A stretch of 64,000 bases of DNA from the NCBI GenBank assembly GCA_949130485.1, contig OX422192.1, positions 4,906,085 to 4,970,084 on the forward strand, written 5' to 3'. The translations under genes and the position numbers were made by a program. Positions 3,700-64,000 of this stretch are shown here, piece by piece. Positions within the stretch are counted from its first letter, which is position 1. Every line of letters begins with the position of its first letter. The DNA is from Agelas oroides (taxonomy: Eukaryota > Porifera > Demospongiae > Agelasida > Agelasidae). The notes beneath the pieces are model-generated. The model worked only from the letters and a program-made list of their open reading frames with translations. It searched no databases and was not told the DNA's origin.

Positions 3700-6350
3700 C
3701 ATCTGTGATAGAAAGATGACAGAAAGACTGTAATTGTGCATGGACACACTGGGGCTCAGAACAGAGTGAAGGTACCAGGCAACTTACACACATACCTAGC
3801 TAGCATGGGGCAACTGTCACATAGCTGAAGAACACATGAAACGTTGCCTTTTAGTTATGAAAATGTTTGCCTTTTGTCAATTACATGTTTGAAAATGCTT
3901 GCCATCATACTCATCATGGAATAATTTTTTTTTTAACAGGCCCTCTCTCCCACTTTACTGTACTGCAGGTGATGGGAGTCCGGGTGAGGCTGAGAATTAG
4001 GGAGTAATTTTCATCACTGGATTAGCTAGATGACTCAACCACTCACCGACCTTCTTGAAGACTCCCTTGAGTCTCTTCTCCACCCTCTTCATTGTCTGGC
4101 AGTCACACACCATACTGACTGTCCTCTGTTGCTAGGGAGAGCTCCAGGATATTCAACTCCTGCACATGATGTGTGTGGTGAATTAAGTATAGAGGTATAG
4201 ACCATGTGTGTTAGGAGGGAATAAGCCTCATACCATTGGCACATTTTTTCTCGTGTTGGAGCTCCACAAGAAAAAGACTGGGTATGAGGCTAGGAGGTAA
4301 TAGTTATTATAGTTTTGAGCAGCGTTCATAGAAGTGACCAATTTTGCCACAGCTATTTCCATATTATACAATATTACAGTCTAAACCACACCCCCAGATG
4401 CTCCCAGGACATGAGAGTTTAGTGCTTCCTTTTACTGTACATTCAAGGGAGAAGTCAGACTAGTTTACTAAACACGTGAACCGTAATCTCCTGAAAATAA
4501 GCTTACCCTCATAACTAAGCCATATTGCACCAGTTCAGTTGTCACTGGCAACCACTGGGTTGGATATGACAGTGACGTCAGTACCGAGGTCAGTCCTGGA
4601 GACAGAGACAGACCTCAATTCAAACAGAGAGAACTGCCACAAAGTAAAGTTAGGGTGGATAACGTGAAAATGAAGATATAGAGTAACACTAAAATAAGTA
4701 TATGGTTGGAATAGTTGTTCATCTGCTAGTGATAGATGAGCATTTTTTTTGGCCGGAATGTCTACGTTAGTGGAAACGGCGACGATTTCTCCAGGGCGTT
4801 GGAGTCAGGATTACGTAATTTGCTCACGTGCGAAAGTTTCAAGAGAAGCGTGCAATGTTCTTTTGGGCTCTTGCACATACCAGCAACGGCCTCAGATTGT
4901 AACAGACCCATATCAGTTGCAAGACTTTAGTTTTTCGCATAGGTAACTGAAAAGAGTGCTATTTCGCCGATTCACTCAAGCTCTGTTTCCAGATATACAA
5001 GTGAGTTGCAAAGACACTGCACCTTGGTTTATTGTTGCCTTGTTGGTACCTATCATTGCATGTGGTCACCTTTTAGAATGCTTGTTGAAAGTCACTAGTT
5101 CAGAATACCCGTAATAGAAAAGCAGGATGTTGCCTCACAACCTCCAGTAGGCATAATGAAATTGATCTCTGCACTTAGAATCATGAAGTTTGCCTGAGTT
5201 AAGTGAGAATATATGGCTGTTTCCTTGGCTGCTTTTAGAAAGTCACTTGTTCTGAGAGTGAACAGTTATTTATAGGAAGCCATGATGCAGTATGACAGTA
5301 TGACCTGTTTTGTCAAAACTTCAAGGCCGTATAGACCTCAAAGATGAATTGGCATGTGATTCTGTCACATTCAAAGCTGTAGACTTCCAAGATGTATATT
5401 CATGCGTTTCATAGCTGGTGATACTGGAACAGTTTCATACTACAATGCTATACTGTAGATACAACATACATACAAAAGCATCTATTAAAGCATTATGACC
5501 CACAGTCATACCCTAGCTGTCTCTACTTTGTCACTTTGTAGATTGATACATCTTTGGCTTGGTAGAGTTAGTGGGACTAAAACCAGTACCACTACATAAA
5601 GGTGTTTACTTAGCTTCGGTCTGCCTTTGTTATCGTGCCATTGTTATTGTCTTGTGTTCACATGCAGACTGAGAGGATCCATGCACCAACTTGACAATAA
5701 ACTGCTAGAGGCTTTTACAGGCCCCTGAAATTGCTGTTCATATACATGGACTACTCGACTTATTTTCATATGTGAATTCAAGGTTCATTGATAATTCTTT
5801 CCGAACATTGCCCTAAATCAGTGTGACTTGACTGACTCTTCTTAGAGATCCAAACCTGACAATGCATGATAATGGCTTCCTATCACTTTTGGAGTTTGTC
5901 CAAGGACTAACGTAGCTGGAAATGTAATTTCAAAGCTCAGCCACCAACTATTGTTTTACTATAGGTATAGTAGATCAATTTTAAGACGATTTCTTCTAAA
6001 CCATGGTATTGCGGTGTAGTACAAACACATCCTGTTTCTATGGAAATCAACATATTTTCGTCCAACTTTTTGCACAGTGCATCTCACCACAGGCTAAGTA
6101 AAAGTATGAGGGTATAAATGTTTTCTACTTGTAAAGTTCATTTTTCATGTTGACAACCCTAGTAAAGTAGCTGTGGTACAAACTAAGCTAGCTTGTTGGG
6201 TGAGAGAAGAGGCTGCATGTCCGGAAATTACCCACTGTCCGGAACCCTCTCTCATCTCTACCATAGATCATCTATATATAGGTTACGTAGTCTAGAGGAT
6301 CTATGTCTCCACCCACCAACCACTTTACCTGAGCAAATTTCCCAGTCGTA
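3700..6350. other. Region without a recognisable gene
   Basis: AT-rich sequence with only short ORFs. The best of them, 4749-4943 on plus (65 codons from MAGMSTLVETATISP), ends at a GT dinucleotide (CATAG/GTAACT) and could be a first exon. No family is recognised and no downstream exon was found, so it is not called. Confidence 0.4.
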
Positions 6351-6594: not shown

Positions 6595-6805
6595 GTGAGC
6601 AGGGCCAGGGACGTAGAACGGTTTTTCAGGCAGCTCTATTTTGTGGCATGTAACACGAGAATTTTTAAGAACATCAATGTTGTGAGCATTTGCACAAGCC
6701 AGTTAAGTTGCTAATGGCACAAGTCGTGGTGGTGGTACTGACTGTACCTGCAGGTAAGGAATACCATGAGAGTTTTGAAGACTGAACTAGGTAAAGCTCA
6801 CAGCT

Positions 6806-8066
6806 TCTGAAAATGCTCACGTTTGAAAATGCTCACAACGCTTGAAAATGTTCACAACGCTTGAAAATGTTCACAACTCTCGAAAATGCTCACAACTCTC
6901 GAAAATGCTCACAACTGGTGAAAATGCTCACAACTCTTAAAAAATGCTCACAACTCTCACAACTGGTGAAAATGCCCACAACTTTCGAAAATGCTCACAA
7001 CTCTTGAAAATGTTCACAACTGGTGAAAATGCTCACAACTCTTGAAAATGCTCACAACTCTCGAAAATGCTCACAACTGGTGAAAATGCTCACAACACTT
7101 GAAAATGCTCACAACTCTCGAAAATGCTCACAACGCTTGAAAATGCTCACAACTGGGAAAATGCTCACAACACTTGAAAATGCTCACAACACTTGAAAAT
7201 GCTCACAACACTTGAAAAATGCTCACAACTCTCACAACTGGTGAAAATGCCCACAACTCTCGAAAATGCTCACAACTCTTGAAAATGCTCACAACTGGTG
7301 AAAATGCTCACAACTCTTGAAAATGCTCACAACTCTTGAAAATGCTCACAACTGGTGAAAATGCTCACAACTCTCGAAAATGCTCACAACTCTTGAAAAT
7401 GCTCACAACTGGTGAAAATGCTCACAACTCTTGAAAATGCTCACAACTCTCGAAAATGCTCACAACTGGTGAAAATGCTCACAACTCTCGAAAATGCTCA
7501 CAACTCTTGAAAATGCTCACAACACTTGAAAATGCTCACAACTCTCGAAAATGCTCACAACACTTGAAAATGCTCACAACACTTGAAAATGCTCACAACA
7601 CTTGAAAATGCTCACAACTGGTGAAAATGCTCACAACACTTGAAAATGCTTACAACTCTCAAAAATGCTCACAACGCTTGAAAATGCTCACAACTGGGAA
7701 AATGCTCACAACACTTGAAAATGCTCACAACACTTGAAATTGCTCACAACACTTGAAAATGCTCACAACTGGTGAAAATGCTCACAACTCTTGAAAATGC
7801 TCACAACACTTGAAAATGCTCACAACTGGTGAAAATGCTCACAACTGAGGAAAATGCTCACAACTCTCGAAAATGCTCACAACTGGTGAAAATGCTCACA
7901 ACTCTTAAAAAATGCTCACAACTCTCGAAAATGCTCACAACTGGTGAAAATGCTCACAACTCTTAAAAAATGCTCACAACTGGTGAAAATGCTCACAACA
8001 CTTGAAAATGCTCACAACTCTTGAAAATGCTCACAACTGGTGAAAATGCTCACAACTCTTGAAAAT
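6806..8066. repeat. 1.26-kb minisatellite, GAAAATGCTCACAAC core
   Basis: Roughly 65 head-to-tail copies of an 18-20 bp unit with core GAAAATGCTCACAAC and a variable 3-4 base joint (TCTC, TCTT, ACTT, TGGT, GCTT). Joint variants recur in blocks, for example the TGGT / TCTT / TCTC alternation. This suggests amplification of multi-unit segments. The array codes for nothing. The same core occurs inverted at 14766-14930. Confidence 0.95.
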
Positions 8067-14930: not shown

Positions 14931-16837
14931 TCTGACCACTTGTGAGCAATACTCAGCGTTGTAAACATTTACCGATATTGTGAGCATGAAGTACATAATA
15001 GAATAGCCAGTGTTTGTCGCGTGCCAATTTACGACAGCCTTCTAATATATAACATATGCAAATATGGCCTAGCATCAATATAGGCAGTACAATAGCTATA
15101 TGCTGGAACAGAAATGCTCACAAAATGTACACTCCTATTTTCTCGTTCGCAAATCGCCGATCACTTGGCGTATGTAGGGGGGTTTCCGAGGTTTCTGGAA
15201 ACTACTCAGGCCCGTCAGTTCAGCAGCACGCAATGTACTGTAGTCTCATTCCCGGCTGCACGCAACACTCAGTTTCCGTGTACATTGTGCAAAGTTTGCG
15301 ACGAACGCATGTTTCGGACGCTGCATGGGGGCGCTGAGGCATACTCATGTAAAACAGTCATTCTTCTAGATATGCCACTGTGAACGAACTCCACTAATGT
15401 CCTCAGTAGTCACTGATTTGCCTTTGTGTGGCTGGCCTATAGTGGGAACAAATTTTTCAGAGTGAGTCCAAATATTTCATAAAAAAATATTTTTCAGGGG
15501 GAACCAATTTTAGAGAGTTTAAATTAAACGTGACAGGACATCATTCCCAGAGAGATCTCATTCCCAGGCCGACTCCGTTTGGTCTGGGAACTAGACCAGT
15601 AGGCCTAGCCTTCACCTGTGCAATATTTGGTTGCTTCCAGTATGCAAATATGGAGGGTAAAGACCTGGGAGGTGTCGTCACGTCTGGTGATGTGATGTAA
15701 TGTCGTAAACATATGGGGGCTGCACCCCTGGTGAAGAATCTCAAGGCCCTTCCTTATAGTGTCTTGTCCATGGACTGGAGACTGGAACGTTCACAACGCT
15801 GTGTCAGTACAGTTTGTTATTCAGTACACTTGGGGCTGATCGATGTAAAGTTTGATCAGGCACCGCCCCCTGTGTGTCTACCCTCTGTCTACGTGACGTC
15901 ACGCATGACAAGATATCCCAGGCCTCCCTGCATATTTACGTACTGGAAGTGACCAAATACTAGTTTCATCTCCAGACCAAATGTTTTGTGTGCACCCTAC
16001 TTTTTGATACTGAAAGTGATCCACTTGGGGTGGTGGGGTCTGGCTTGTGAGACTATATTATCAAGGGCACTGCAAAGTACTAGCACTTTTGGTTTCATCA
16101 TCTCTCAAGTCAGAAATTTTGTCTTTGTACCCACTATAGACCATGTGCAATGCATCATGTACTTAACCACAACATATACGTTATTTGCAACAGGACAACT
16201 GCATCATTCATATAGAGAAAATAAACGAACTCCGTGACACAATCAAGTTTACATACAAAGTTAGTGACAAGTTAGTTAGTTAGTGAGTAGGTATGCAGTA
16301 TTGTGGCATAATCTATGACCGAACGATTGCAGATTTGAACGATGCCGCTGCTCGCCAATTTCCAAATCTGTTCTGCAAGGATCTGTTCTGCAAGTTGTAT
16401 ATTATAGGCTAATACTCACAGTAGTCTAATACTCACGGTAGTCTAATATAGTGTGGGACCATAGAGAATAGAGACTGGCACACTGCCCACCCATTTGCTA
16501 TGCCTATGTGGGTCACTGTTGTTTAGTATGGCTTCCACCATTGTTCCTTTTCCTCACGTGGTATGTTGGTATATAGAGGAGATAATGTCTATTGGTGCTA
16601 GTACACAGTGGTGTGGTAGTTTGGTGTTCTCTATAAGGTTTATGAGAATCTTGCATAAAAGATGAGTTGTTGGTTGAAGACAGCAGTCAGATTGAGAAGT
16701 GATTTCTCTTCTGTTGCAGCTGGAGACAGACGGTCTGATTCCAATTGGAACAGTTAGTGCTTGTTAGGTTGTGTTGTGTGGTCACCCCACCTTCTGGCAC
16801 CCCATCAGACTCAAGAATACATGCATGTTTGCGATAT

Positions 16838-16840
<3 letters not shown>
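14931..16840. other. No gene; contains a degenerate inverted-repeat element at about 15541-15980
   Basis: The 15541-15980 part has inverted partners CATTCCCAGGCC / CCCAGGCCTCCCTGC, TGCAAATATGGAGGG / CTGCATATTTACG and GTCGTCACGTC / GACGTCACGC. This is the layout of the 33373-33773 element in decayed form. The rest shows only short ORFs. Confidence 0.45.

Positions 16841-16915
<75 letters not shown>
16841..16915. repeat. (TG)n microsatellite
   Basis: About 37 uninterrupted TG dinucleotides. Confidence 0.98.
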
Positions 16916-17306: not shown

Positions 17307-17456
17307 GCATGGGGTCTCTGAGTGCAATGGAGCAGAATAGTGGCAGTCAACATCGCTACTTCAGTGAGGGAGAGAAGGTCAAGGTGGCATAGGGTGTGTC
17401 TGGCTCCGTGGTGGACAAGGGATCCATATTCCAGCTCATACCTTACCTCCTAGCAG
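17307..17456 (+). CDS. IMPDH: IMPDH exon, flap segment, contains TAG
   Basis: 150 bp; acceptor CCTCCAG, donor GTATGG. It encodes GMGSLSAM through YLLAG. Codon 28 counted from the Met is TAG, whereas the family has Gln (AQG). No other disruption is visible in the exon, and the rest is conserved at the amino-acid level, which argues for a recent change or a base error. Confidence 0.85.
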
Positions 17457-19338
17457 GTATGGGAGGTTATTGTTTTGAGGGTGGTGTATTATCATGACAT
17501 CACAGTACTGTGTTTATATGAGGTGTGTCTGTGTCTCCCACAGGGGTGCAGCACAGCTGTCAGGACATGGGAGCCCGCAGTCTGACCAGCCTCCGCTCCA
17601 TGATGTACAGTGGGGAACTGAGGTTTGAGAAGAGGATAAACTCAGCCATCGTGGAGGGAGGGGTCCACGGATTACACTCGTAAGTAGTCAGTGGGACTTC
17701 ATTAGGGTGGTCTGTCAACTAGCTACCACTATGGTGGGAGTGGTCCTGCACATGTGCAGCCTCATACCCAGACCCTCTGCAAACATTTGTAGCTTGGGGG
17801 GGTTCACTTTACCTCCCATGATTTGATGTTAAAAGTGTGGCTCTTAGAATTGTTATGCTTTACTCACAACTATCCTGTTTTTCATAAGAGGGTTGGCAGG
17901 GGGCACCCCCTTGGATCCCCCAGGCATTAGGCCATGCAAATTGGATTTATTGTTTCTTACCAGTGGCTGCTAGCCTTGTTCCCAGGCCCTCGCCCAACTT
18001 CCCGTCACTTGCAGTACGGTAAAGCCCGCTTCACCGTACTGCAAGCGACGGGAAGCTGGGCGAGGGCCTGGGAACGAGGCTAAGTGGCTGCTTCATTGGA
18101 GACCTGCCACCTCAACAGTTATTATCGCCTTCCAAACCATGACACGCCCAGGTTGCATATCAAGTGTGTATAGCATTCACTAGTTGCCAAGCGCAGAGAA
18201 GTCAAATGTAACAGCAGCTCATGAAACTAGAACTGCCCACATAATTTACACTAACACATTGAGACATTGAGAAGCAGGAGAGCAGTGGTCATGGTAGTGT
18301 CATCATTACACCTTCTCCTCTTCTGTTTCACTTGCAGGAGAGCAGTGGTCATGGTAGTGTCATCATTACACTGTCTCCTCTTCTGTTTCACTTGCAGGAG
18401 AGCAGTGGTCATGGTAGTGTCATCATTAGACTGTCTCCTCTTCTGTTTCACCTGCAGGAGAGCAGTGGTCATGGTAGTGTCATCATTACACTGTCTCCTC
18501 TTCTGTTTCACTTGCAGGAGAGCAGTGGTCATGGTAGTGTCATCATTAGACTGTCTCCTCTTCTGTTTCACTTGCAGGAGAGCAGTGGTGATGATAGTGC
18601 CATCATTGCACTGCATGTCTCCTCTTCTGTTTCACTTGCAGGAGAGCAGTGGTGATGGTAGTGCCATCATTAGACTGTCTCCTCTTCTGTTTCACTTGCA
18701 GGAGAGCAGTGGTGATGGTAGTGCCATCATTAGACTGTCTCCTCTTCTGTTTCACTTGCAGGAGAGCAGTGGTCCTGGTAGTGTCGTCATTAGACTGTCT
18801 CCTCTTCTGTTTCACTTGCAGGAGAGCAGTGGTCCTGGTAGTGTCGTCATTAGACTGTCTCCTCTTCTGTTTCACTTGCAGGAGAGCAGTGGTCCTGGTA
18901 GTGTCGTCATTAGACTGTCTCGTCTTCTGTTTCACTTGCAGGAGAGCAGTGGTCCTGGTAGTGTCGTCATTAGACTGTCTCGTCTTCTGTTTCACTTGCA
19001 GGAGAGCAGTGGTCCTGGTAGTGTCATCATTAGACTGTCTCGTCTTCTGTTTCACTTGCAGGAGAGCAGTGGTCCTGGTAGTGTCATCATTAGACTGTCT
19101 CCTCTTCTGTTTCACTTGCAGGAGAGCAGTGGTCCTGGTAGTGTCATCATTACACTGTCTCCTCTTCTGTTTCACTTGCAGGAGAGCAGTGGTCATGGTA
19201 GTGTCATCATTACACTGTCTCCTCTTCTGTTTCACTTGCAGGAGAGCAGTGGTCATGGTAGTGTCATCATTACACTGTCTCCTCTTCTGTTTCACTTGCA
19301 GGTATGAGGACTGTTCTAGGACCAACCGACAGTCATAG
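17307..19338 (+). CDS. IMPDH: Inosine-5'-monophosphate dehydrogenase, last three exons (one in-frame TAG)
   Basis: IMPDH oxidises IMP to XMP with NAD+, the committed cytosolic step of GMP synthesis. Exons 17307-17456, 17544-17679 and 19302-19338 join in phase to give about 106 codons. They align without gaps to the end of animal [14 protein letters not shown], then [62 protein letters not shown] and [15 protein letters not shown] is the family's potassium-site segment near the C-terminus. Two oddities stand out. The codon matching human IMPDH2 Gln441 is TAG (17390-17392), and the usual C-terminal KRLF is replaced by DCSRTNRQS. The preceding exons (flap arginine, catalytic cysteine, barrel, CBS pair) are not recognisable within the 17 kb upstream. 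The piece may therefore be a duplicated gene tail or pseudogene, or the upstream introns may be very long. Confidence 0.85.
17544..17679 (+). CDS. IMPDH: IMPDH exon with QHSCQDMGA and EGGVHG
   Basis: 136 bp; acceptor CCCACAG, donor GTAAGT. It continues in phase from the previous exon after an 87-bp intron. The conserved [11 protein letters not shown] and VEGGVHG blocks make this the safest part of the identification. Confidence 0.9.
17971..18082. mobile_element. 112-bp foldback element with exact 9-bp target duplication
   Basis: A nearly perfect palindrome from TAGCCTTGTTCCCAGGCC to its complement ending GGAACGAGGCTA. It is flanked on both sides by AGTGGCTGC (17962-17970 and 18083-18091). 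It lies in the last IMPDH intron. The 9-bp duplication points to the Mutator-like superfamily; no transposase is present. Confidence 0.9.
18278..19301 (+). repeat. 60-bp minisatellite, each unit ending in a 3' splice site
   Basis: Seventeen units, sixteen of 60 bp and one of 64 bp (18578-18641, with four extra bases in GCACTGCATGTC). Every unit ends with CTCTTCTGTTTCACTTGCAG, a strong polypyrimidine tract plus CAG, except that the first unit is preceded by a poor tract. The last unit's CAG is the acceptor of the terminal IMPDH exon (19302). Internal variants (CATGGTAGTGTCATC, GATGGTAGTGCCATC, CCTGGTAGTGTCGTC) are arranged in neighbouring blocks, a sign of stepwise local duplication. Because 60 is divisible by three, long ORFs appear in several frames on both strands; these are not independent genes. 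Confidence 0.97.
19302..19338 (+). CDS. IMPDH: IMPDH terminal exon ([11 protein letters not shown], stop)
   Basis: It starts after the last CACTTGCAG and completes the split Ser codon (TC+G). The family has SYEKRLF here; only Ser-Tyr-Glu is kept. The new ending lacks the hydrophobic final residues of the normal C-terminus. Confidence 0.65.
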
Positions 19339-30657: not shown

Positions 30658-32175
30658 TCACATCACAAGGCTCTTTTCTGTCTTTTGCTCTTTGCTAATG
30701 TTCCTGGTCTGTGCAATCTGTGCCGTTAATGTGCTAACTTGCTCTTCACTGTCACTCCTGGTCTGTAAAATCTGTGCCGTCAATTCCATGATTCGTGCCT
30801 TTAAAGTTGAAATTGTAGCAGCATCAGTAGCTCTATCAGTAGCTCTATCAGTAGCAGTAGCAGCATCAGTAGCTCTATCAGTAGCTCTATCAGTAGCAGT
30901 AGCAGCATCAGTAGCTCTATCAGTAGCTCTATCAGTAGCAGTAGCAGCATCAGTAGCTCTATCAGTAGCTCTATCAGTAGCAGTAGCAGCATCAGTAGCT
31001 CTATCAGTAGCAGTAGCAGCATCAGTAGCTCTATCAGTAGCTCTATCAGTAGCAGTAGCAGCATCAGTAGCTCTATCAGTAGCTCTGTCAGTAGCAGTAG
31101 CAGCATCAGTAGCTCTATCAGTAGCAGCATCAGTAGCTCTATCAGTAGCTCTATCAGTAGCAGTAGCAGTATCAGTAGCTCTATCAGTAGCAGTAGCTCT
31201 ATCAGTAGCAGCATCAGTAGCTCTATCAGTAGCTCTATCAGTAGCAGTATCAGTATCAGTAGCTCTATCAGTAGCAGTAGCTCTATCAGTAGCTCTATCA
31301 GTAGCAGTATCAGTATCAGTAGCTCTATCAGTAGCAGTAGCTCTATCAGTAGCTCTATCAGTAGCAGTATCAGTATCAGTAGCTCTATCAGCATCAGTAG
31401 CAGCATCAGTAGCTCTATCAGTAGCAGTAGCAGCATCAGTAGCTCTATCAGTAGCTCTATCAGTAGCAGTAGCAGCATCAGTAGCTCTATCAGTAGCTCT
31501 ATCAGTAGCAGTAGCAGCATCAGTAGCTCTATCAGTAGCAGTAGCAGCATCAGTAGCTCTATCAGTAGCTCTATCAGTAGCAGTAGCAGCATCAGTAGCT
31601 CTATCAGTAGCTCTATCAGTAGCAGTAGCAGTATCAGTAGCTCTATCAGTAGCAGTAGCTCTATCAGTAGCAGCATCAGTAGCTCTATCAGTAGCTCTAT
31701 CAGTAGCAGTATCAGTATCAGTAGCTCTATCAGTAGCAGTAGCTCTATCAGTAGCTCTATCAGTAGCAGTATCAGTATCAGTAGCTCTATCAGTAGCAGT
31801 AGCTCTATCAGTAGCTCTATCAGTAGCAGTAGCTCTATCAGTAGCTCTATCAGTAGCAGTATCAGTATCAGTAGCTCTATCAGCATCAGTAGCAGTAGCT
31901 CTATCAGTAGCTCTATCAGTAGCAGTATCAGTATCAGTAGCTCTATCAGTAGCAGTAGCTCTATCAGTAGCTCTATCAGTAGCAGTAGCTCTATCAGTAG
32001 CTCTATCAGTAGCAGTATCAGTATCAGTAGCTCTATCAGCATCAGTAGCAGTAGCTCTATCAGTAGCAGTAGTAGTAGTAGCAGTAGTAGTAGTAGCAGC
32101 AGTAGTAGGTGTGTAAATAACAGTAGACATCTCTGCAACATGTCTCCTCTCCACCTCACGGTAAATTTTCACCAT
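30658..32175 (-). CDS. Receptor exon 16: giant repeat tail and coiled coil
   Basis: Residues 724-1228. It starts MVKIYREVERRHVAEM directly after TM7, a fitting membrane-proximal sequence. About residues 758-1177 consist of ATDRATD, ATATD, TDAATATD and TDTDTATD units, with equal Asp and Arg and no hydrophobic residue larger than Ala. The end ISTLKARIMELTAQILQT ... TLTAQIAQTRN has heptad-spaced Leu/Ile/Val, where GABA-B receptors carry their dimerisation coiled coil. Acceptor ATTTAG; stop TGA at 30658-30660. That the ends on both sides are non-repetitive and family-like argues that the repeat is translated. Confidence 0.8.
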   Translation of the reverse strand: MVKIYREVERRHVAEMSTVIYTPTTAATTTTATTTTATDRATATDADRATDTDTATDRATDRATATDRATDRATATDRATDTDTATDRATDRATATDADRATDTDTATDRATDRATATDRATDRATATDRATDTDTATDRATDRATATDRATDTDTATDRATDRATDAATDRATATDRATDTATATDRATDRATDAATATDRATDRATDAATATDRATDAATATDRATDRATDAATATDRATDRATDAATATDRATDAATDADRATDTDTATDRATDRATATDRATDTDTATDRATDRATATDRATDTDTATDRATDRATDAATDRATATDRATDTATATDRATDRATDAATDRATDAATATDRATDRATDAATATDRATDRATDAATATDRATDAATATDRATDRATDAATATDRATDRATDAATATDRATDRATDAATATDRATDRATDAATISTLKARIMELTAQILQTRSDSEEQVSTLTAQIAQTRNISKEQKTEKSLVM

Positions 32176-38100: not shown

Positions 38101-41100
38101 TGAACTGCTCAAATCAATGGATCAAGAACACAGAAGGGCCCAAGCAATTAAGCACACTTTTTGCGAATCAAAAACCTTGATCCCAGTCGCAAACGCTTGA
38201 ACACACGGCATGTGACTACCCCTTGGTCTTAGTAGGAAAGTCTTAGTCTTAGTCTTAGTAGGTAACAGGTTAGCTCACAAGCTAAGGACGAACATGATCA
38301 CAGTATTCAATATTAAAATACTGACTGAACCTGTTGGGGGTTTTTACACGAGTCCAGTATTAGCTACATAATTTTCTTGCTATAAAATTAAGTTGCACAA
38401 TCTCTTTGAATACAATACAGACTACCTGATGTCTTGTTCAACTGGTGTTTTGTTGCTGCATGCCCTCCAGCAACTCAAACTCGACTCGAGGATCTAGGCT
38501 TCGCAGAGAGGTGTGGCTTGTGAGACTATGTGCTTCATGCCTGGATCCAGTTCCATGGCGCTCTGCGCGCGCAATGCGCACATTACAGTTTATGACGTCA
38601 CCACATGGAGTTGGGTGAACTTAGTGAACCCCTATTGGCCGCATGTTGCGTGGGCACGTTGCCATCATTACGAAATGGAGTCCACATTACGTAATTACGT
38701 ACTAACCGAGTCTACCATTTCCGGTCCGTGACGTAGTATTGCTCCCAGGCCTTCTCCCGATTTTTCTCCACGGCTGCGAGATTAAATCTGGGAGTGGCCT
38801 GGGAACGAGGCTAGCGCTAGCATGCTACCAGTTATCTTTCTTATAAATTGGCGAACTCACGTCTTTGTTCAAGTACCTGGCGAGAAAGCTCTTGTTATGA
38901 AAATGGCGTCCTTTTGAGTCAAGCTGTAGCAAGGGTTTTTTCTTGACGTTACTGATTCCTGTATAAAGGATATTAACCAGAGATGTTGAGAACGAGGGGT
39001 TGTTGCCGCTGCAACCGGGGTGGTCGCTGCAGAAACTGCTCCTGTCGAAAGAACGGTAGCCAGTGCTCGAGCTGTCTGCCAGGACGGCTTGGTAGGTGCA
39101 AAAACCAGGGGGTCACTGTCAATATAGGGATGAATATAGACGGCAATGATCATACCGCTCATACCACCACTCTCACCTTGCATAGCTTGGATAGCGTGGA
39201 CGACAACAGCACTGGAATTGTCAAAGTTGTGAGTAGAGACAGGGTGGTAAATGGGAGGCAGATCGACCTAGACCCCACTCACATTGACGGCTCCACAGCC
39301 CTGTCCCACGATCATATTTCCACTCACTGTGTGAATGGTAGTGATGGAAATCATGGTGCATCTGTCCTGAGGCATGTGGTGTGTGAGCTTCCACCTTATG
39401 AAGAAGCTGCTGCTCCAAATTTTCAACGGGGCGAAATTGATGCTGAGACCTTCTCCCACTCAATTGAATGCTGCTACGCGGAGGTTGTGCACTGGAAAAG
39501 GAATCTTTTCAAAATACCATCAGGAAAAGCTGGCAAGGCATTTGTGAGGGAACTATCTCGATTATTCCATGCTTTTGGTGATTCCTCAGCCATGGAGTGT
39601 GTTGCCCTGAAAGCTGCAATGGTTTTGCCAGCTCTTCTTCTCCAAAGGCCTCATGTCAAATCAAAAGCCAAAGACCATTCCACCCACTTGGAACGCGGAT
39701 TAAAACTATGGGAAAAGGGGGACATCAACTCACTGGTGATTGAAGCTCGTACCATCCAGCGCCAACGGGAAAAGCGAACCACAATGACAAATGAAGCAAA
39801 ATCAGAAGGCCAAATGGCTCGCACTTTCTCTAAACTGATGATGGAGGGAAAGGTGAAAGCCGCACTTAGGATCCTAGCACAAGACGGCAATGGTGGTATG
39901 CTCCCCTTGAATAATGAAGTGCTTGAAGCCCTTAGGGAGAAACATCCAGCAAGGAAACCAGCAGTACCATCAGCATTAATCACGTCCGATTCTCGCAGTC
40001 AAGAACCATCACACTTCATCCTATATGATCAACTTGATGGCCAGCTGATACGCAAAACTGCACTGAAGACAGATGGGGCAGCTGGCCCCTCAGGCCTTGA
40101 TGCAGCAGGATGGAAACGTCTCTGCACATCCTTCCAGTATGCCTCCACAGATCTCTGTGATGCCATGGCTTCCACAGCAAGGAGACTCTGCTGCTCCTTC
40201 ATAGATCCAAAGAGCCTCTCTGCATTCGTTGCTTGTCGACTTGTAGCCTTGGATAAACGCCCTGGGGTGAGGCCTATCGGCATAGGAGAAACAGCAAGAC
40301 GTATAATTGGGAAGGCAATCCTGACCACTATCAGAGATGACATCCAGGAAGCTGCTGGCCCACTTCAGCTATGTGCTGGACAAGAAGCTGGATGTGAGGC
40401 AGCAGTGCACGCCATGCATCAGATGTTCGAGTCTCCAGACGTTGAAGCAGCAATCCTGGTCGATGCCTCAAATGCATTTAACACCCTCAACAGAGAAAAT
40501 GCACTGAGGAACATCCAGTATCTTTGCCCCCCCCCTTTCAACTGTACTGATTAATACCTACCGCGAAGATGTACAGCTGTTCATTGATGGAGAAACAATG
40601 ATTTCTGAAGAAGGGACAACGCAGGGACATCCCCTAGCCATGGCCATGTATGCCATAGGTATCCTTCCACTAATCCAGAGTTTATCAAATGAAAATACTA
40701 AACAAGTGTGGTATGCGGATGATTCAGCAGCCTGTGGAGACCTGACAAACCTTAGATTCTGGTGGGACCATCTTGCCAAAGTTGGACCTAACTATGGATA
40801 TCAACCAAATGCATCAAAAACATGGTTGGTAGTGAAAGAGGGCAAATTTGACGACGCCATATCCGCTTTTGAGGGGACTGGGGTAAACATCACTCTGGAA
40901 GGGAAGTGGCATTTGGGAGGAGCTCTGGGCACTAGATCTTTCATTGAAAGCTATGTCCAGAAGTTGGTTTCAGAATGGGTCAGAGAGTTGGAGCGACTGT
41001 CCTCTTTTGCCGTCAGCCAGCCTCATGCCGCTTACGCTGCATTCACGCATGGCTTCACAAGCAAGTGGACCTTCCTTGTCAGAACCACCCCTGATATTGG

Positions 41101-44100
41101 CACCCTATTGAAACCGTTAGAGGACACGATAAGGCTCAAATTCCTGCCTGCTCTTACCGGCCAAAATGCTCCAAACAACACAGAACGAGATCTCTTGGCC
41201 CTGCCTGCACGCCTGGGTGGCATTGGCATCATCGACCCAACTCAACTGACAGCATCACACTATACCACCTCAAGGAATGTTTCAGCCCCACTGGTATCTC
41301 TCATCCTACAGCAATCCACCTCCTACCCAGCCTACTGCAAAGAGTTGCAGAGGAAAGCCAAATCGGATGCCTACCAGGCCAAGAGACAACATGAAACAAC
41401 ATGCGCCAATGACTTGTTTAACAAGATTCCTCACAATCAGCAGAGAGCTCTGGAGGCTTCTAAAGAGAAGGGCGCATCAAGCTGGCTCTCATCCCTCCCT
41501 ATTGCAGAACATGGCTTTGCTCTACATAAAGGAGCTTTTAGAGATGCTCTCTGTCTCAGGTATGGGTGGCGACCACCACACCTGCCATCAAACTGTGTCT
41601 GTGGCAAGCAATACACCATTGAACATGCCCTGAGCTGTGCCTGTGGTGGTCTTCCTTCAATTAGGCACAATGAACTTAGGGACATAACAGCACAACTCCT
41701 TACTGAAACATGCCATGGTGTTGGAATCGAACCACTCCTACAGCCACTAGAGGATGAACAGCTCAGGCACAGAACAGCTAACAGAGAGGATGGTGCTCGT
41801 CTTGACATTGTAGCAGAGAACTTCTGGGGACGCGACCGACAAAATGCAATACGCACCGAGTCACCGCGGCACCACTCTGGTTCAATGCTACAGAAGAAAT
41901 GAGCAAGAAAAGAAGCGTGCATATGAGGAGAGAGTGAGAGAAGTAGAGCATGGCTCCTTTTCACCACTAATATTTTCAACGTCCGGAGGGATGGGCCCAA
42001 TTGCAACTGTGGTCTACAAACGGATTGCCACCCTCATCGCAGAGAAACGCGACCAGCCTTACAGCAGAGCACTATTTTGGATTCGCTGCAAACTCAGCTT
42101 CTCACTACTGCGCTCTGCCATTATGTGCATCAGGGGATCAAGGTCCTCATACCATCACCCAGCTGGTATGATTGGGGAAGCTATTGACCTCACCTGCTCA
42201 GAGGGCAGAATCGTGTCTTCACAATAGGGAACAGACATTTAGAACTACCTGTTCACCACAACCATTGTAATCTTCGTTGTTTTGTTTTTCATTTTCTTAC
42301 ATCATTTATATGTATACTTTGACTCTGGTATTTCCGCATTGTTAATTAACAAAATAAAAACAAAAAAACCTTGAGCGAGAGGACGGCAACGATCCCTGAT
42401 ATACGCGTACGCAATGTTTATGATGACGTAATGCGCTGCGAGACGCCAACACCAAATTTAAATTTCGCCAATATTTTCTTTCGCTTGGTTTGGGCAAAAC
42501 CTCCAAATTTAAAGACCGCCAATATTTCCGGTTATACGGTAAGTGATTAGTATCTACTTCACTCTTACCTTTTTCCTGCCAAAGTGATAGTAGAAAATGT
42601 AAGCCATGACCATGATGGTCCCGAAACACAGGGAGTAGCCAGTGAGCTGAGTCCAGGCTCGTATCTGACATAGGTGGGATTATGGGCAAGTATGAACAAT
42701 CAGAGAAACTATCTTCCTTTTACCTAAATGCCCACACCCTTCCATACTAATTTTCTAGGTCAACTCATTTAGTTTTGTCAAAAAACTCGTGAACAAGCTG
42801 TCAAAGAATGGCTTTGTTAGTCGTAATTTACCAAGAATGCTACTCAAAATTACATGTAGTGGCTAGATTTCGAGTGGTACTGGAAAAATACCACTAGATT
42901 CTTGTGCTAAGAGACTAGATACCAAAAACGGTGAGTTTTAAGGGCAAGCAGATATTTGACACAAAAGAGTTCATATGGAGGGTTTGTTTTGGGTAGTGTG
43001 GATTTTAACTTGCTAGAGCTGTTATGACCTAAAGAGCATTATACATAGCCTGGTGTTTGGATCTCTATAGGTTAATGAAGTGCTACAATGCCTGCATGTT
43101 ATAAATTTGAGATTCAAGTGCATTTATTGAATTCTGATTAAATCATTCTAACCTTGTGCCAGAGTGCAGTTATTAGGACAGTTACCCACACCACCATTTA
43201 ACTTCCACTTTGAACTTGTATGGTATCATGCAACAAAAAAATTTAGAAATGGCAAGCTACAAAGTGGACTGGACTTTATAGGCATACATATTAATATTAT
43301 GCACAACAACTCATGCACTACCTAGAGAGAAAGAATTGGCAATTTGTGGGGAAAGTGTGTTTCTGTAACACAGATAGGCAGATTTACAACTCAGGCAAAT
43401 GGTATTCCTGACTGACTCAGCATTACAAGACAGAGAACTTATAGCTCAAAGATAAGACACAGTGTGAGATATCAAAAGTGGAATCAACTAACAATCATCA
43501 TTCTTGCTGGTGAAAATTCACTATTGAGCTAGTCTTCATTGTATTGATGCAGTCTCCCACTCGTTGCTTGATCAACTATTGGCAGTTGGAGAGGATTAGT
43601 CCATCACCAACAGGGTGTGCTATACATGTTTGCGGGACTAACAGAAAATGTGCTTGCTTGTGTTTTTAATCATATTCATTTTTGTTGGCCTAACATGGCA
43701 TGTGCCCTAATGCGGCCACTATATACTACATTGGGTTATACTAGGTAGCAGTTGACTGTACACTTGTACCCAGGTTATCAACACTGGAAGGAGAAAGCTG
43801 CTGCACACTGGGAAAGGGTTGTCAATTCGGTGCAATATATCATTAGTCCATCTACATACATACATACACACACACACAGACAAGTGACTCACATGGCAGT
43901 AGATGGTTTGGTTGGTTTCAACAGTAGTGGGGATGACATAAAAATAGACAGTAGTATACAATAAAGTGGCTCCAATGACCATCAGGTAGTAGAGGTTAGG
44001 GCCCATGAAACGAATAAGCCTTGAGAAGAACATAAATATTAAAGCATCATTCATATTAGACTGGCAGCAATATCAAAATGAGATGGATGGTATTGGAGTG

Positions 44101-50021: not shown

Positions 50022-53000
50022 ATGTGTACATGTATGATTAAAAAGAAATGTAGGCTAGTGTGGGGCGAGATCAGGACAACATGAGCAATCACGTAGCTAA
50101 TGGATAATGAAGGATAAAGTAGTAACTCACAGCACACATGACTCTTCGTGCATGTTGGGCATACATGTTAAGAAAGTAGACACGGATCTCAGGAGTCTGT
50201 AAATGGAATAAAGAGTGTATCAGGTATGCATTGTAAGTTTTTGGGCATGCATCATAACTTAACCAATGTCCATATTCACAACAAGATGTGACACAGTTGA
50301 GGAAGTATGTACAGTGTAGTTAGATATTGGTTTACATCTGCCAAATGTGATGTTAACGCTGTTCCATGACACAGCGGAATTACTAGCGAATGCATTTCCA
50401 CAATTTCATCTGTAGATAACATAATTTTGATTAGGCAGTAGAAGCAATGTGAAAATGGCTAACATGGAGAACTTTAGCCAGTTGCCTTCTTTGAAGGAGA
50501 AATGCATGCGACAAGACAGACATGGACCTTACTAATAGACTTCTCTTGCATTCTTACTTGTGAAGCTGTTTTCCACCCCAAGCACTCTGGGTGTACGAGT
50601 AAGTGATGGAAGAGTGTTTATTGCCCTTGCTGTCCCTCTGAATGATGTGGATCGGTTTTGGTGGGTCTGGCTGGTGAGACCTTCTGGTTTCTGGTTGCTG
50701 TCATCTCTAATGTGGATGATAGATGTAGCAGATCCCAAGGAAATTACATGGAGGTGGCAGCTCCTGTCCATAGACTATAAGCATAAGTGCAAAGGATGTC
50801 TCACATGGAGAGGAGAGAGTCTGGTTGAGTTCCCTATGGACACGTGATCTACACGGCCATGTACCATGCTCACAGCTAGCTAGCTAGGTAGCATACCGTA
50901 CGTAGATCAAGAGATGGATATAAAGACATTCTTTGTAACTCAAGATAGAGAGAAGTCTACTGATTCAGTCGAAGGAGCAGTAGCCAGGAGTGCATTGATT
51001 CAGTCAAAGGAGCAACAGCCCAGGAGTCATGGGTGCATGGGTGGGCACATCATAAGTTTTGTGCATGCTTCCCCCCACCCCCCATAAAACAGCTCTAACC
51101 ATCATGACAGGTTTTAGGCAGCTGTAGATCAACTTGCATTGACCGTTTCACACTGAACTTTTTGTGTGCACAAAGCAATGCTACCAATGCTTGTGAATGC
51201 ACATCTATCCGTGCGGTGGTGTTATTTACTCTGCTACTACTGTAAAACTCCACGTGCATTACCCAGCAGTACAAAACCTCTGCTCCACAAAATTTATATG
51301 CCCATATGGATTTCTGGAAAGCTAGCGATTCTACTGGATAATTGATGCTATCAATGAATAGTACAGACCTAATTGGCCACACAAGTATTGTAGCATGGAC
51401 AGATCTTAATGGTTCATCATGGCCATACCATTTCTCTAGTAAGGGATGTGACTTGCAAGTTTATTGTGCCATCCACATTGAAACACACAGATGGACTACA
51501 GGCTGTAACATACATACGCTCTGACACTACACAACTCACAAAGAGTAGGTCTTTGGTAGCCACATTTTCTTCAGATTGAAAGAGAATGGTACCACTCATG
51601 TCCAAAAAGATCCCAGCATTCCTAAGATTATGCTCAATCAGCTGTGTGGTCTGATTGAATGTGGGAATTTTGTTATTACATACTTCTATGTACATTCTGT
51701 AAACACTCTGTAAACATATACTTACAGAGGTGAACAGTGATTCATCCTGGGTTATGATCTTAAGTTGCATCCATCCATAGTGCATCACAACAGCTACAAT
51801 AGACTGGGCAAGGTTGTCATTTGAAGGATAGGTGCGCCAGAAGTTGGGGAATCTCGTCCTATCATTGAGGGATGAGGTAGCAGAAGCATAGGAAAGCTGT
51901 ATGTGTGTGTGTGCAGAGTTAGGTGAAAACATCACTCTCCAGCAGTGAGATTTGGTATCATGGCACAGTGGCGTAGGAACCGTAGCGGCCGTAGCGGCTT
52001 TGGCCGCTACACTTTTTAGGCCGGAAATTAATATTCATAACCTGCTAAAGTTACTATAATATCTAAAGCTAGCCTCGTTCCCTGGGAACGAGCCTAAGCT
52101 CAAGCAGCCTCTTCGTTACACGAGTCTCATATGCAGTTACATGCGTACATTTCCGCTTAAAGTACACTACAAAACAATCAAAATCTTGGCAGTGAGATGG
52201 CTTGGTACGAGGCTAGTGCACATTTTCACAGAGACTACCACAAGCGACGAAAGCTGGGCGGTCTCCTGGGAACAACGACGAAGTCAGTACGTATAATCTT
52301 ACTGTTTTCCAAATGTTTTACTGGACGGTTGGGAAGGTCTGAAAGCTTATACCCTTGAAATTCTAATTGACAACTTCTGGAGTTTGGAAGCCAGCCCATT
52401 TATAGCAATCATGTGCATTTGATGATTTTCATGTCTACAGTCATTCTCACTACATCAGTCATTCTCGCCTCTCCACTCATTCATTTTAAAGATTGCCACT
52501 TTATTGCTGCATAGCTACAGCAATTGTTTAACCCAGAAAATGTGCTGATTTATAAATTTTTCACTGGACAAACTGACAAACTGACAGACGAACAAAAAGC
52601 GATTGCTTACCCCCTTCGTGCATCCAGACGCAGGGTAATAACCATGGCTGCACTCTACTATCTATGTTAAAACCAATATCAACCAATCCTACATGTAGTC
52701 ATGTTGTATCATGCACCTGCACAATCTAACATCCAATAGATATGGAACTTACTAATGGATGGACATACGAACACATCACAATATCCATCGACTACACATA
52801 GTGCATGTGGGTCACTCGAGCTCAACCCCATGTAATGTCCTAGAGTTATAGGATTACCTGTGTGATGTTCCAGTGATGGATGATCTCTGCAACTGGTTGT
52901 GTAGCAACGGAGCACCCACAGCCCAGCACTGCCAATTTTGGAGGCCATCTGGTTATCATGTGGAAGAAGCTATCAAGAGACTGGGTTCTGTCACACTGAA

Positions 53001-61036: not shown

Positions 61037-62400
61037 TCAATTAACATTGGCAATTTCTACTGTATCTGTCTCTTCACAACCATCAGTTGTGCCCCCCACC
61101 ACAATTAGTTTGTTGCCTGGGAGGACTGTCACTAGACATCTGTAACGAGAGATAGCCATGCGGCCAACAGTGTCCCAAGAGTAAGTCACTGGATTGTACA
61201 TGTAAATAGCGTCACTTTCCTTCTTGTCTGCATGTTGTCCACCAACGATTAGTAGCTGTCTTTGTAATGTAACACAGGTGGAACAAAAAACTGGTAGGTC
61301 AGTGATTGTGCTCCACACGAAATGGTTTCTGGTTATCGATACACTTGTCTTTGCCTCAACAATAGTCAGTGATTGGAGAAGTGCGCTCAGACTACAGACT
61401 AGCATGCACTTTGTTGAGTTGTGATGCTTCTCAATTCCTCTTACCAGGTAGATGTTGTCCCCGCAAACTGTGGCTGATGCAGAAGAGAGAGGGTATGGCA
61501 TGCTGCTGGCTGTAGACCACTGCAGAGTATCAGTATCCATCACTTCTATAGTTGACGATTCACCTCCCTCTCCTATCCCCCCTGCCACCACCAAGGCCTT
61601 TCCACTGTACACAACAGCAGCACCACATCGCTTGGTGGACATAGGTGGAAAATGTTCCACCCACTTCCTCTTCCCACCTTGTGTAGCCGCAAGACTGAAA
61701 ACTGAGCTGGTGTATTTATCATTAAAGAGAGTGGAGTACCGCCCACCAACAGCAGTCACAAACTCATTGACAACTGTCAGAGTGAAAGCATACATGGGAC
61801 AATCTGGAAGGGTAGACCACTCTTCTGTGTCTGAATTGTACGCTTGCACTTGTTTACTTTTTCCTGGTCTGAAGTATGCCACGCTGCCATGAATAGTTGC
61901 TGAACCTGCCCGCATTGTGCATGGTGCTGCCTTACACAATTTTAACTTCAGATTTAGTTTACTTTTCTGTGTTGCTGTTGACAGTTGCAAAGATTCCTCT
62001 TTTGTTGTAAGGATTTCCTGCTGTGGTGGAAATGAATTTTCTGCCACATTTACTCCATCTCTCTGCACCTGCTCACCGGCTGCCAACTGTTCTTTCTCTG
62101 GGAGTGGCCTTTCCAAGGCATATTTTGTTCCTTCGGTTTGTTGATGTTTCTCTTGCATTTGTTCATAAATGGCTTGTTCAAGTTTCTGCCTGAGTTGTTG
62201 TATGTCTTTTTGTTGTGCAGCTATGATTTCATCCTTCATTTGGATTTGAGCTTCATGTCGACATGTCCTTTCATGTAGCTGTTGTTGCAGTTTCTCCTTT
62301 GTTTTCTGCAGTTCCCTCATTTGCATCTCTCTGTCAACTATGGTACATGGTACTGCTTGTGTATCTTTGTCTTGAGCTTGCTGCACACTTTCACCATACA
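61037..62400 (-). CDS. Coiled-coil and Kelch-repeat protein, large 3' exon
   Basis: The exon follows a good acceptor (ATTTTAACAG) at 62401 and continues a split codon, so an upstream exon with the start is missing from this call; stop at 61037-61039. It encodes 453 residues. About 18-95 are a Gln/Glu/Lys-rich coiled coil (MRELQKTKEKLQQQL, KDIQQLRQKLEQAI), then a polar linker. From about 165 to the end come Kelch blades with the typical GG ... aromatic ... W pattern (YNSDTEEWSTLPDCP, VVAGGIGEGGESSTIEVMDT, LIVGGQHADKKESDAIYMYN, KLIVVGGTTDGCEETDTVEI). The last strand can close the propeller. Such proteins act as scaffolds or ubiquitin-ligase adaptors; no BTB, RING or B-box is visible in this exon, so the role is open. 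The exon is intact. Confidence 0.85.
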
Positions 62401-64000
62401 CTGTTAAAATAGAGGTGTGAAATTAACACCGGTAGTGTTAAAGTAAGCATATATCTGCAGTGCAAGTATCAACCCATGAGGTGTAGTATAACACTTGGTT
62501 GTTTAGTTCAGCACCAGCATGGCTTAGTGTAAACCACCAGTGAGTAGGATTGACACCAATGTGAGGTTCACATGATACACGCAAGAAAGGGAGGTGTTAT
62601 ACCAACACCAGGAGTGCTATTTATGTAGTGTTAAAGTTAACCCAGTAGGTGCAGTGTAGCACTACATGTTTTACTTTAGCCCTAACATAGTTTAATTTAA
62701 AACTTTAGTGTAGAAATAGCACCAACAGTAGGGTTTATAAGGTTCATACTCTAGTGCACCTCAGACAAGAATTTCCTGAGTACTTTTCATAAAACATACA
62801 GATAGCTACTTTATTACACACTTCCTTGGTTAATTTGCTACAATACATTGATGTTAACCACCTTGAAACAATTGCTGACATCAATTTGAAGGCGCTATAT
62901 ATCATGGACTTGCTAAAATTTGGAGTTAAACATATAGTAGTAAAACTCCAGACGCTTGCTGCGGTGGGAATCCGTGCAGAGATGCAGTTTCTAGCCTGCT
63001 GTGTCTCACTGGGTAAGTATTTCCGTGCTACGCATGCGCATACTGAACTTCGTACTTTGCACTTTGTACAATCGCGTGATTTTCGGCGCGCGGGCAGCGC
63101 AGCAGCTGCCGATTTCTCTTGTGTGCGATTTGAACCTTCTGTGGCCGTTCCCTGGTTTGTAACTTCTAACTTTTGTGATTCTAGCAACCTCCTACTGTTT
63201 TAAAGTAGTCGCTCTCGACGTTTAAAATGTGTGCGCATCCCGCGCATCCGAGTCGGCGTATCACTGATCGTCGAATCGGTGACTGTCGCATCAAGGACAG
63301 CTGGAAGATGAATGCCATAGTCAGCACGCACTGGGTTGGACTTCGCTCCCCCAGATTCCAACAGGAGAACAAACAATTCTGTATTGTTGGAGTCCTTCTA
63401 CCGCGAGCGACAGCAACAAGACAGTGGAATCAGCTATCATAGTGAGTTGCAAGCAATAAACTCTAGTGTGAACAAGACTAGGAGATTGCCACAGCATGCA
63501 TGCAGTACACAACCTGTATAACTGTATCTATAGGCTTATTGTTTATACCAACATGCAGTTGATTTCACTGTATGGAATGCCATTATACATATCTATATTT
63601 GTAGCTGCTCAAGAAGCTCAAAGCTGAGGATGTGCTAACAGGGAGTATCAACTGAGAGAAAATGAGGGGAAACGTTTGGAGTGGCAAAGCTGTGTGGACT
63701 AAGCCAATGACGACTTCTCTACTACAGGTGGTGGATAACATGGTAAGCAACATTCAACAGGAGCCACATGCGTGATTCAATTAAGGTTCATGTCAAAATA
63801 TTTTCATATGCCATCATTTTTACACAAAAATTGTTAACGTCGAAATTTTTTTAGCAGGGCAAGGGTGGATTGAGGGATTCAGCTGCTGATGAGCTACCAC
63901 TGGCCAAAGACATAGCTGTATTTGTGCCTACCATTAGGTACCTTGGCTACAATCGCTTGTGAAGGCAGATGAATAAAAAACGACTCCTTGGGCAGACTCT
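62401..64000. other. Upstream of the Kelch exon; first exon not found
   Basis: 62430-62740 contains irregular AACACCAGTAGTGTTA-like inverted repeats. 63000-63300 is CpG-rich and promoter-like. ORFs at 63227-63521 (plus) overlap in two frames without recognisable domains. A purine-rich segment after a TTAGCAG acceptor at 63858 stays open for 34 codons to 63962 but is unrecognised. Confidence 0.35.
62793..63012 (+). CDS. Possible SAM-like exon (weak)
   Basis: A plus-strand open segment ending at a consensus donor GTAAGT (63013). IADINLKALYIMDLLKFGVK followed by a basic-hydrophobic helix resembles the second half of a SAM domain (IDGxxLLxLTexDLkxLGI), with two or three residues missing. No acceptor with a good pyrimidine tract was identified, and it runs opposite to the Kelch gene. 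Confidence 0.2.

Follow-up and report, generated by a model that had tools for sequence, protein, structure and literature searches.

The stretch of DNA analysed here (hereafter, the window) comprises 64,000 nucleotides of the sponge Agelas oroides (GCA_949130485.1, contig OX422192.1, positions 4,906,085 to 4,970,084; this contig is referred to as C10). It contains a copy of the IMPDH gene, denoted W, the last intron of which runs into a tandem array of 3' splice sites (acceptors). An earlier note on this DNA had described a 17-fold acceptor array, with the last CAG being the acceptor of the terminal exon, and this description was confirmed. Tandem Repeats Finder reports a single array at 18274-19302, with a period of 60 bp, 17.1 copies and a 96% match. 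The array consists of 17 near-identical acceptor-like units, CTGTTTCACYTGCAG followed across the splice boundary by G, that are spaced by 60 bp except for one 64-bp step; the corresponding exon starts are 18338, 18398, 18458, 18518, 18578, then 18642 (the 64-bp step), and thereafter every 60 bp to 19302. The last AG of the array fits the terminal exon at 19302. Thus, the array ends at the acceptor 19301/19302 and spans the intron-exon boundary, with an exonic share of the unit of at most one base, the first G. When both strands of the window were scanned for CTGTTTCACTTGCAGG with up to two mismatches, 17 matches were found, every one inside the array; the mean number expected by chance is 0.07, and 17 matches were reached in none of 100 shuffled sequences. 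The tract is present with at most one mismatch in all 17 units of W (site 18458 carries the variant CACCTGCAG), indicating that the splice signal is repeated in each unit.

With 17679 as the donor, each of the eleven sites from 18642 to 19242 keeps the frame of 19302, as the note had stated. The five sites before the 64-bp unit read a different frame that ends at TGA 19305-19307, again in agreement with the note; four of these were read directly, and the out-of-frame status of site 18458 follows from the 60-bp spacing. The note also pointed out that the array is open in the frame of the terminal exon. Three of the six reading frames of the unit are open, and therefore the openness of the array is weak evidence of coding.

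The IMPDH copy that carries the array is decayed. We used a human IMPDH2 sequence as the tblastn query, and residue numbers refer to the human protein. W matches residues 413-508 only, in two exons directly before the array; the other exons, including that of the catalytic loop, were not found by tblastn anywhere in the window or in the 36 kb before it, where the only IMPDH matches belong to a separate copy, K. The identity of the remaining tail is supported by a phmmer comparison, in which 24 distinct sequences of IMPDH with solved structures were matched at an E-value of 0.001 or lower (the best 2.3e-20). In Pfam, the exon before the 53-residue exon matches PF00478, with one TAG inside the match, and no family was found for the frame of the 53-residue exon and for four other frames near the locus. 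The codon at this TAG (17390-17392) encodes Gln in copies A-G, J and K, and His in H; the exon was unrecovered for copy I. The terminal exon is TATGAGAAGAGACTGTTCTAG, reading YEKRLF and a stop, in nine of the 12 copies (A to I); compared to this sequence, W has lost 4 bp, and J and K have lost 10 bp. The 4-bp loss in W replaces the usual end, SYEKRLF and a stop, by a 12-residue frameshifted end, so that the eleven-residue terminal peptide is a frameshift product. W is a truncated IMPDH pseudogene with a broken reading frame. It should be noted that neither the TAG nor the 4-bp loss was mentioned in the earlier note, which assigned the array to a working housekeeping gene; that assignment does not hold. 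The length-variable IMPDH C-terminus that the note envisaged is likewise barred in W, because an upstream TAG and a frame-shifted terminal exon leave no such product in the normal frame. The introns are kept in W, which suggests an origin by DNA duplication. Positions 15184-16889 of the window are 80-91% identical to the upstream regions of copies A, E and F, indicating that W and these copies have a common 5' flank. The coordinates of the features at the locus are listed in Table 1.

Table 1. Features of IMPDH copy W and of its last intron (window coordinates)
Feature	Position	Strand	Remarks
IMPDH pseudo-exon, from residue 413	17307..17456	+	in-frame TAG 17390-17392; PF00478 match
IMPDH pseudo-exon, to residue 508 (...GVHGLH)	17545..17679	+	TC at donor; first base placed by eye
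Last intron	17680..19301	+	donor gtaagtag to 17th acceptor; 1622 bases
Near-perfect palindrome in last intron	17971..18082	.	55-nt arms, 93%, 2 nt between; fold-back-element-like
Minisatellite, 60 bp x 17.1	18274..19302	+	units end CTGTTTCAC(T/C)TGCAG
Units 1-5	18278..18577	+	acceptors (exon starts 18338 to 18578) out of frame with terminal exon
Unit 6, 64 bp, shifts frame	18578..18641	+	
Units 7-17	18642..19301	+	acceptors at exon starts 18642 to 19242 in frame with terminal exon
Terminal pseudo-exon	19302..19338	+	4 bp shorter than copies reading YEKRLF-stop; frame-shifted 11-residue end after (S), then stop

The genome surveyed is a 259-Mb assembly of 141 contigs. Twelve IMPDH copies on C10, A-K and W, were followed. 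They represent a local amplification of IMPDH, with seven clustered copies (A-G, at 1.38-1.55 Mb) and five outlying ones (H, I, J and K at 4.38-4.88 Mb, and W in the window; 4.38-4.93 Mb altogether). The numbers of acceptors per copy are A 8, B 2, C 1, D 1, E 13, F 4, G 1, H 1, J 3, K 3 and W 17; thus, the range is 1 to 17, in a comparison among 11 paralogs. In copy I, the GCAGG at the junction is lost and the acceptor AG is gone. A search of the whole genome for the exact unit-to-unit junction gave 43 occurrences, always within seven IMPDH copies on one contig. This total equals the units less one, summed over the seven multi-acceptor copies; the junction pattern in reverse, used as a control, was not found in the genome. 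A dispersed repeat was thereby ruled out, all 43 exact junctions being confined to these copies. The same counts bear on an assembly artefact, in which the number of units would be inflated or the array itself produced by misassembly. Unit counts of tandem arrays are hard to assemble, and runs of 2500 and 200 Ns are located near copies A and G, respectively. However, the variants of the unit fall in ordered blocks and the same junction is present at seven separate loci, and we consider an artefact extremely unlikely. Outside C10, PF00478 matches were observed at C23:6657775-6658655; these may come from a related enzyme, for which GMP reductase is our guess.

The array resembles the "mirage" minisatellites of amphioxus, which were described in Adh3 and in the globin genes BflGb6 and BflGb9 (PMC3087553), and also in TnC and PGBD5 (PMC3902484). 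In the passages of these papers used here, unit lengths are 10-160 bp, with one unit of 60 bp in PGBD5, and the copy number in BflGb6 differs between haplotypes (6 and 3 units; PMC3087553). As in those descriptions, the W array is a tandem repeat lying over an intron-exon boundary with the splice signals repeated, and the homogenization of amphioxus units within a cluster is a further likeness. There are three differences as far as the amphioxus cases are described there: (i) the amphioxus hosts are active genes, for which RT-PCR (reverse transcription PCR) suggests that regular splicing is kept, whereas the host of W is a pseudogene; (ii) the 17 units of W exceed the 6 and 3 units of BflGb6, although the W comparison is made among paralogs instead of haplotypes; (iii) in W, no more than one base of the unit is exonic. 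We conclude that the W array is very probably a boundary-spanning mirage minisatellite of drifting copy number, which lies at the last IMPDH acceptor of a dead copy truncated at its 5' end. The anatomy, the repeat common to the copies, their copy numbers and the decay of W are direct observations, and the assignment to the mirages rests on the anatomy together with the copy-number instability. In a transcribed copy, by analogy with amphioxus, splicing would probably join the donor mainly to the terminal exon, and minor in-frame isoforms would be possible.

The boundaries of the repeat suggest how it may have arisen. In W, J and K, the array opens with an intronic GCAGG, and the true acceptor of W is also GCAGG. 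We propose that the 60-bp stretch from the intronic GCAGG to the terminal-exon acceptor GCAGG was duplicated in tandem in an ancestor of copies on C10, presumably at GCAGG microhomology, which would have given each duplicated unit a whole acceptor of its own. Later, the number of units may have been altered separately in each paralog by unequal exchange or slippage, to the present 1 to 17, probably by neutral drift without a selected role for the array. This scheme presumes that arrays contracted to a single acceptor in the C/D/G lineages and in that of H. Copies B, C, D and G have in common the join AACAACGTCATCATT (AACAAC-GTCATCATT) inside the unit, B retains one unit junction, and in F the intron continues past the AACAAC-GTCATCATT join point. 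Given the common join and the junction kept in B, copies C, D and G are most simply explained as contracted arrays, that is, B minus one unit. In H, ACACATTG is joined to mid-unit, and the unit has the -36 G that is seen in W9-W12; H is likely a contracted array. Neighbouring units are more alike than expected from a shuffled order in W (0 of 5000 shuffles) and in E (p 0.0046), and the similarity is not significant in A (0.19); the result for W suggests that its array grew by local duplication. Copy I has an independent array of its own over the same junction (65 bp x 4, 4087-4344 of the extracted stretch), the unit of which takes in the start of the terminal exon. Because the AG is lost in this copy, the site appears to expand without a working acceptor. 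The tree of the paralogs has weak support at several nodes and was used for rough kinship only.

The integrity of the copies was compared to the number of their acceptors. In D, which has one acceptor, no break was seen in the exons from residue 33 onwards, and the exon borders show AG/GT (read by eye); the first coding exon of D was not found. A 260-base stretch of copy C shows that the 3' part and the donor of the exon for residues 145-178 are lost; the other exons of C are present. In B, the exons covering roughly residues 84-145 are missing. One exon of E contains a stop, and its catalytic-loop exon has two extra bases. A has a 1-bp loss, with its run of Ns lying before the exons. For F, no exon before residue 207 was found in 7 kb upstream or in the genome search, and the genome search gave no N-terminal exon for G. 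Truncation or a frame shift affects H, I, J and K. Thus, all seven multi-acceptor copies are broken, by missing exons or by breaks. A rule according to which intact genes have one acceptor and broken genes have arrays was considered and dropped, since C is broken and D alone remains.

We also compared changes among units and codons. Of 54 units, 46 were alignable (shifted or partial units B1, C1, D1, E3, F1, G1, H1 and W6 were left out), and the first seven bases of the unit were fixed by the choice of units. Of the 22 changes counted, the final 18, 20, 23 and 28 nt of the unit contain 2, 3, 5 and 7, respectively (P=0.096 for 23 nt and P=0.118 for 28 nt). In ten units of W (W3, W5, W7-W14), an additional AG (TTAG) has arisen upstream of the tract, which fits drift. 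For codons, differences from D in the last two exons were counted as synonymous/nonsynonymous: W 6/5 and a stop, A 4/2 and a 1-bp loss, B 1/0, C 2/0, E 7/1, F 2/1, G 2/0, H 8/8, J 7/13 and K 7/16. Judged by these codons, the last two exons seem constrained or converted in the cluster copies, E included.

Several of these observations weigh against a drifting minisatellite in dead copies. First, breaks are also present in C, G and H, which have one acceptor each, so that array length does not track decay, and D, as the sole intact-looking copy, is too few to show purging. Second, only one of the 22 changes falls in the last 15 nt of the unit, compared to 5.5 expected (P=0.015, uncorrected, and the best of five lengths); this scarcity could mean constraint on the acceptors, but it is suggestive at best. 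Third, the 7/1 ratio of E, together with its 13 acceptors, points to a long-array copy that either was converted or remained subject to coding constraint until recently, and the codon pattern of the cluster copies counts against plain decay of all array-bearing copies. Finally, some of the history proposed here could be mimicked by gene conversion.

The first of these points also bears on a second alternative, namely, that long arrays harm splicing and that their expansion helped to kill the copies. This would agree with the damage in seven of seven multi-acceptor copies, and the amphioxus authors remark that such repeats could act as cryptic sites (in a passage of PMC3087553). However, C, G and H were broken with one acceptor, most of the breaks are exon losses unrelated to the array, and amphioxus genes with mirages splice normally according to the passages cited (PMC3087553, PMC3902484). 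We regard such harm as very unlikely.

The scarcity of changes near the acceptor is relevant, weakly, to a third alternative, a working cassette of competing acceptors, in which a transcribed paralog would add n x 20 residues before YEKRLF or would slow the last splice. A cassette could also account for the strong tract and AG being kept in all 17 units of W, for the 60-bp spacing that preserves the frame in A, B and F, and for the frame of B, which runs through the upper acceptor into YEKRLF. Conversely, W cannot make an IMPDH tail, owing to the TAG and the frame-shifted end, each of A, B, E and F lacks exons or carries breaks, a single acceptor suffices in D as far as could be seen, and the 59-bp step in E and the 64-bp step in W break the frame. 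On the sequence evidence, such a cassette is very unlikely. The earlier note had proposed a microevolved acceptor cassette; complete acceptor-like units and local duplication are indeed found, but not in a working gene. A splicing ladder, with several acceptors used in at least one transcribed paralog (B, F, A or E, with 2, 4, 8 and 13 acceptors), is similarly improbable. If it were true, the ladder would provide 20-residue in-frame steps or a slower last splice, and the number of units would set the output and vary between individuals.

As a mirage minisatellite, the W array adds a boundary-spanning case outside the amphioxus ones cited, and no report of arrays of this many 3' splice sites was found in the open-access literature searched. 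For IMPDH in sponges, the sole paper matched in that literature was a review on viroids. A minisatellite with multiple splice donor sites was reportedly described in the human gene 6-16 (IFI6/G1P3) in Nucleic Acids Res in 1995. In 6-16 as in W, a splice signal is multiplied by a minisatellite located at a splice junction; however, W repeats acceptors, in an inactive copy, and 6-16 repeats donors. Internal tandem repeats are also known to modify human paralogs in segmental duplications (PMC2812944). As described in the part of that paper used here, these repeats and the W array are alike in being minisatellites that differ among recent paralogs and may sit at exon-intron boundaries, whereas half of the human repeats are in coding sequence, with transcript evidence, and W represents a single last-intron acceptor known from DNA alone. 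The series of paralogs, which spans 1 to 17 acceptors at the same intron within a single genome, offers a ready test of spliceosome choice among equal acceptors, and also of whether arrays persist in working genes.

Other features of the window were noted as well. Long open frames without a Pfam match are present at 38977-40554 and 40508-41902 (+; 525 and 464 amino acids), a frame with an ANF_receptor match at 51417-52034 (-), and an open frame with Kelch repeats at 61037-62422 (-). There are two further long tandem arrays: one at 6796-8066, with 66 copies of a 19-bp unit, and one of mixed type (12/30/42/156 bp) at 30815-32108, with long open frames on both strands.
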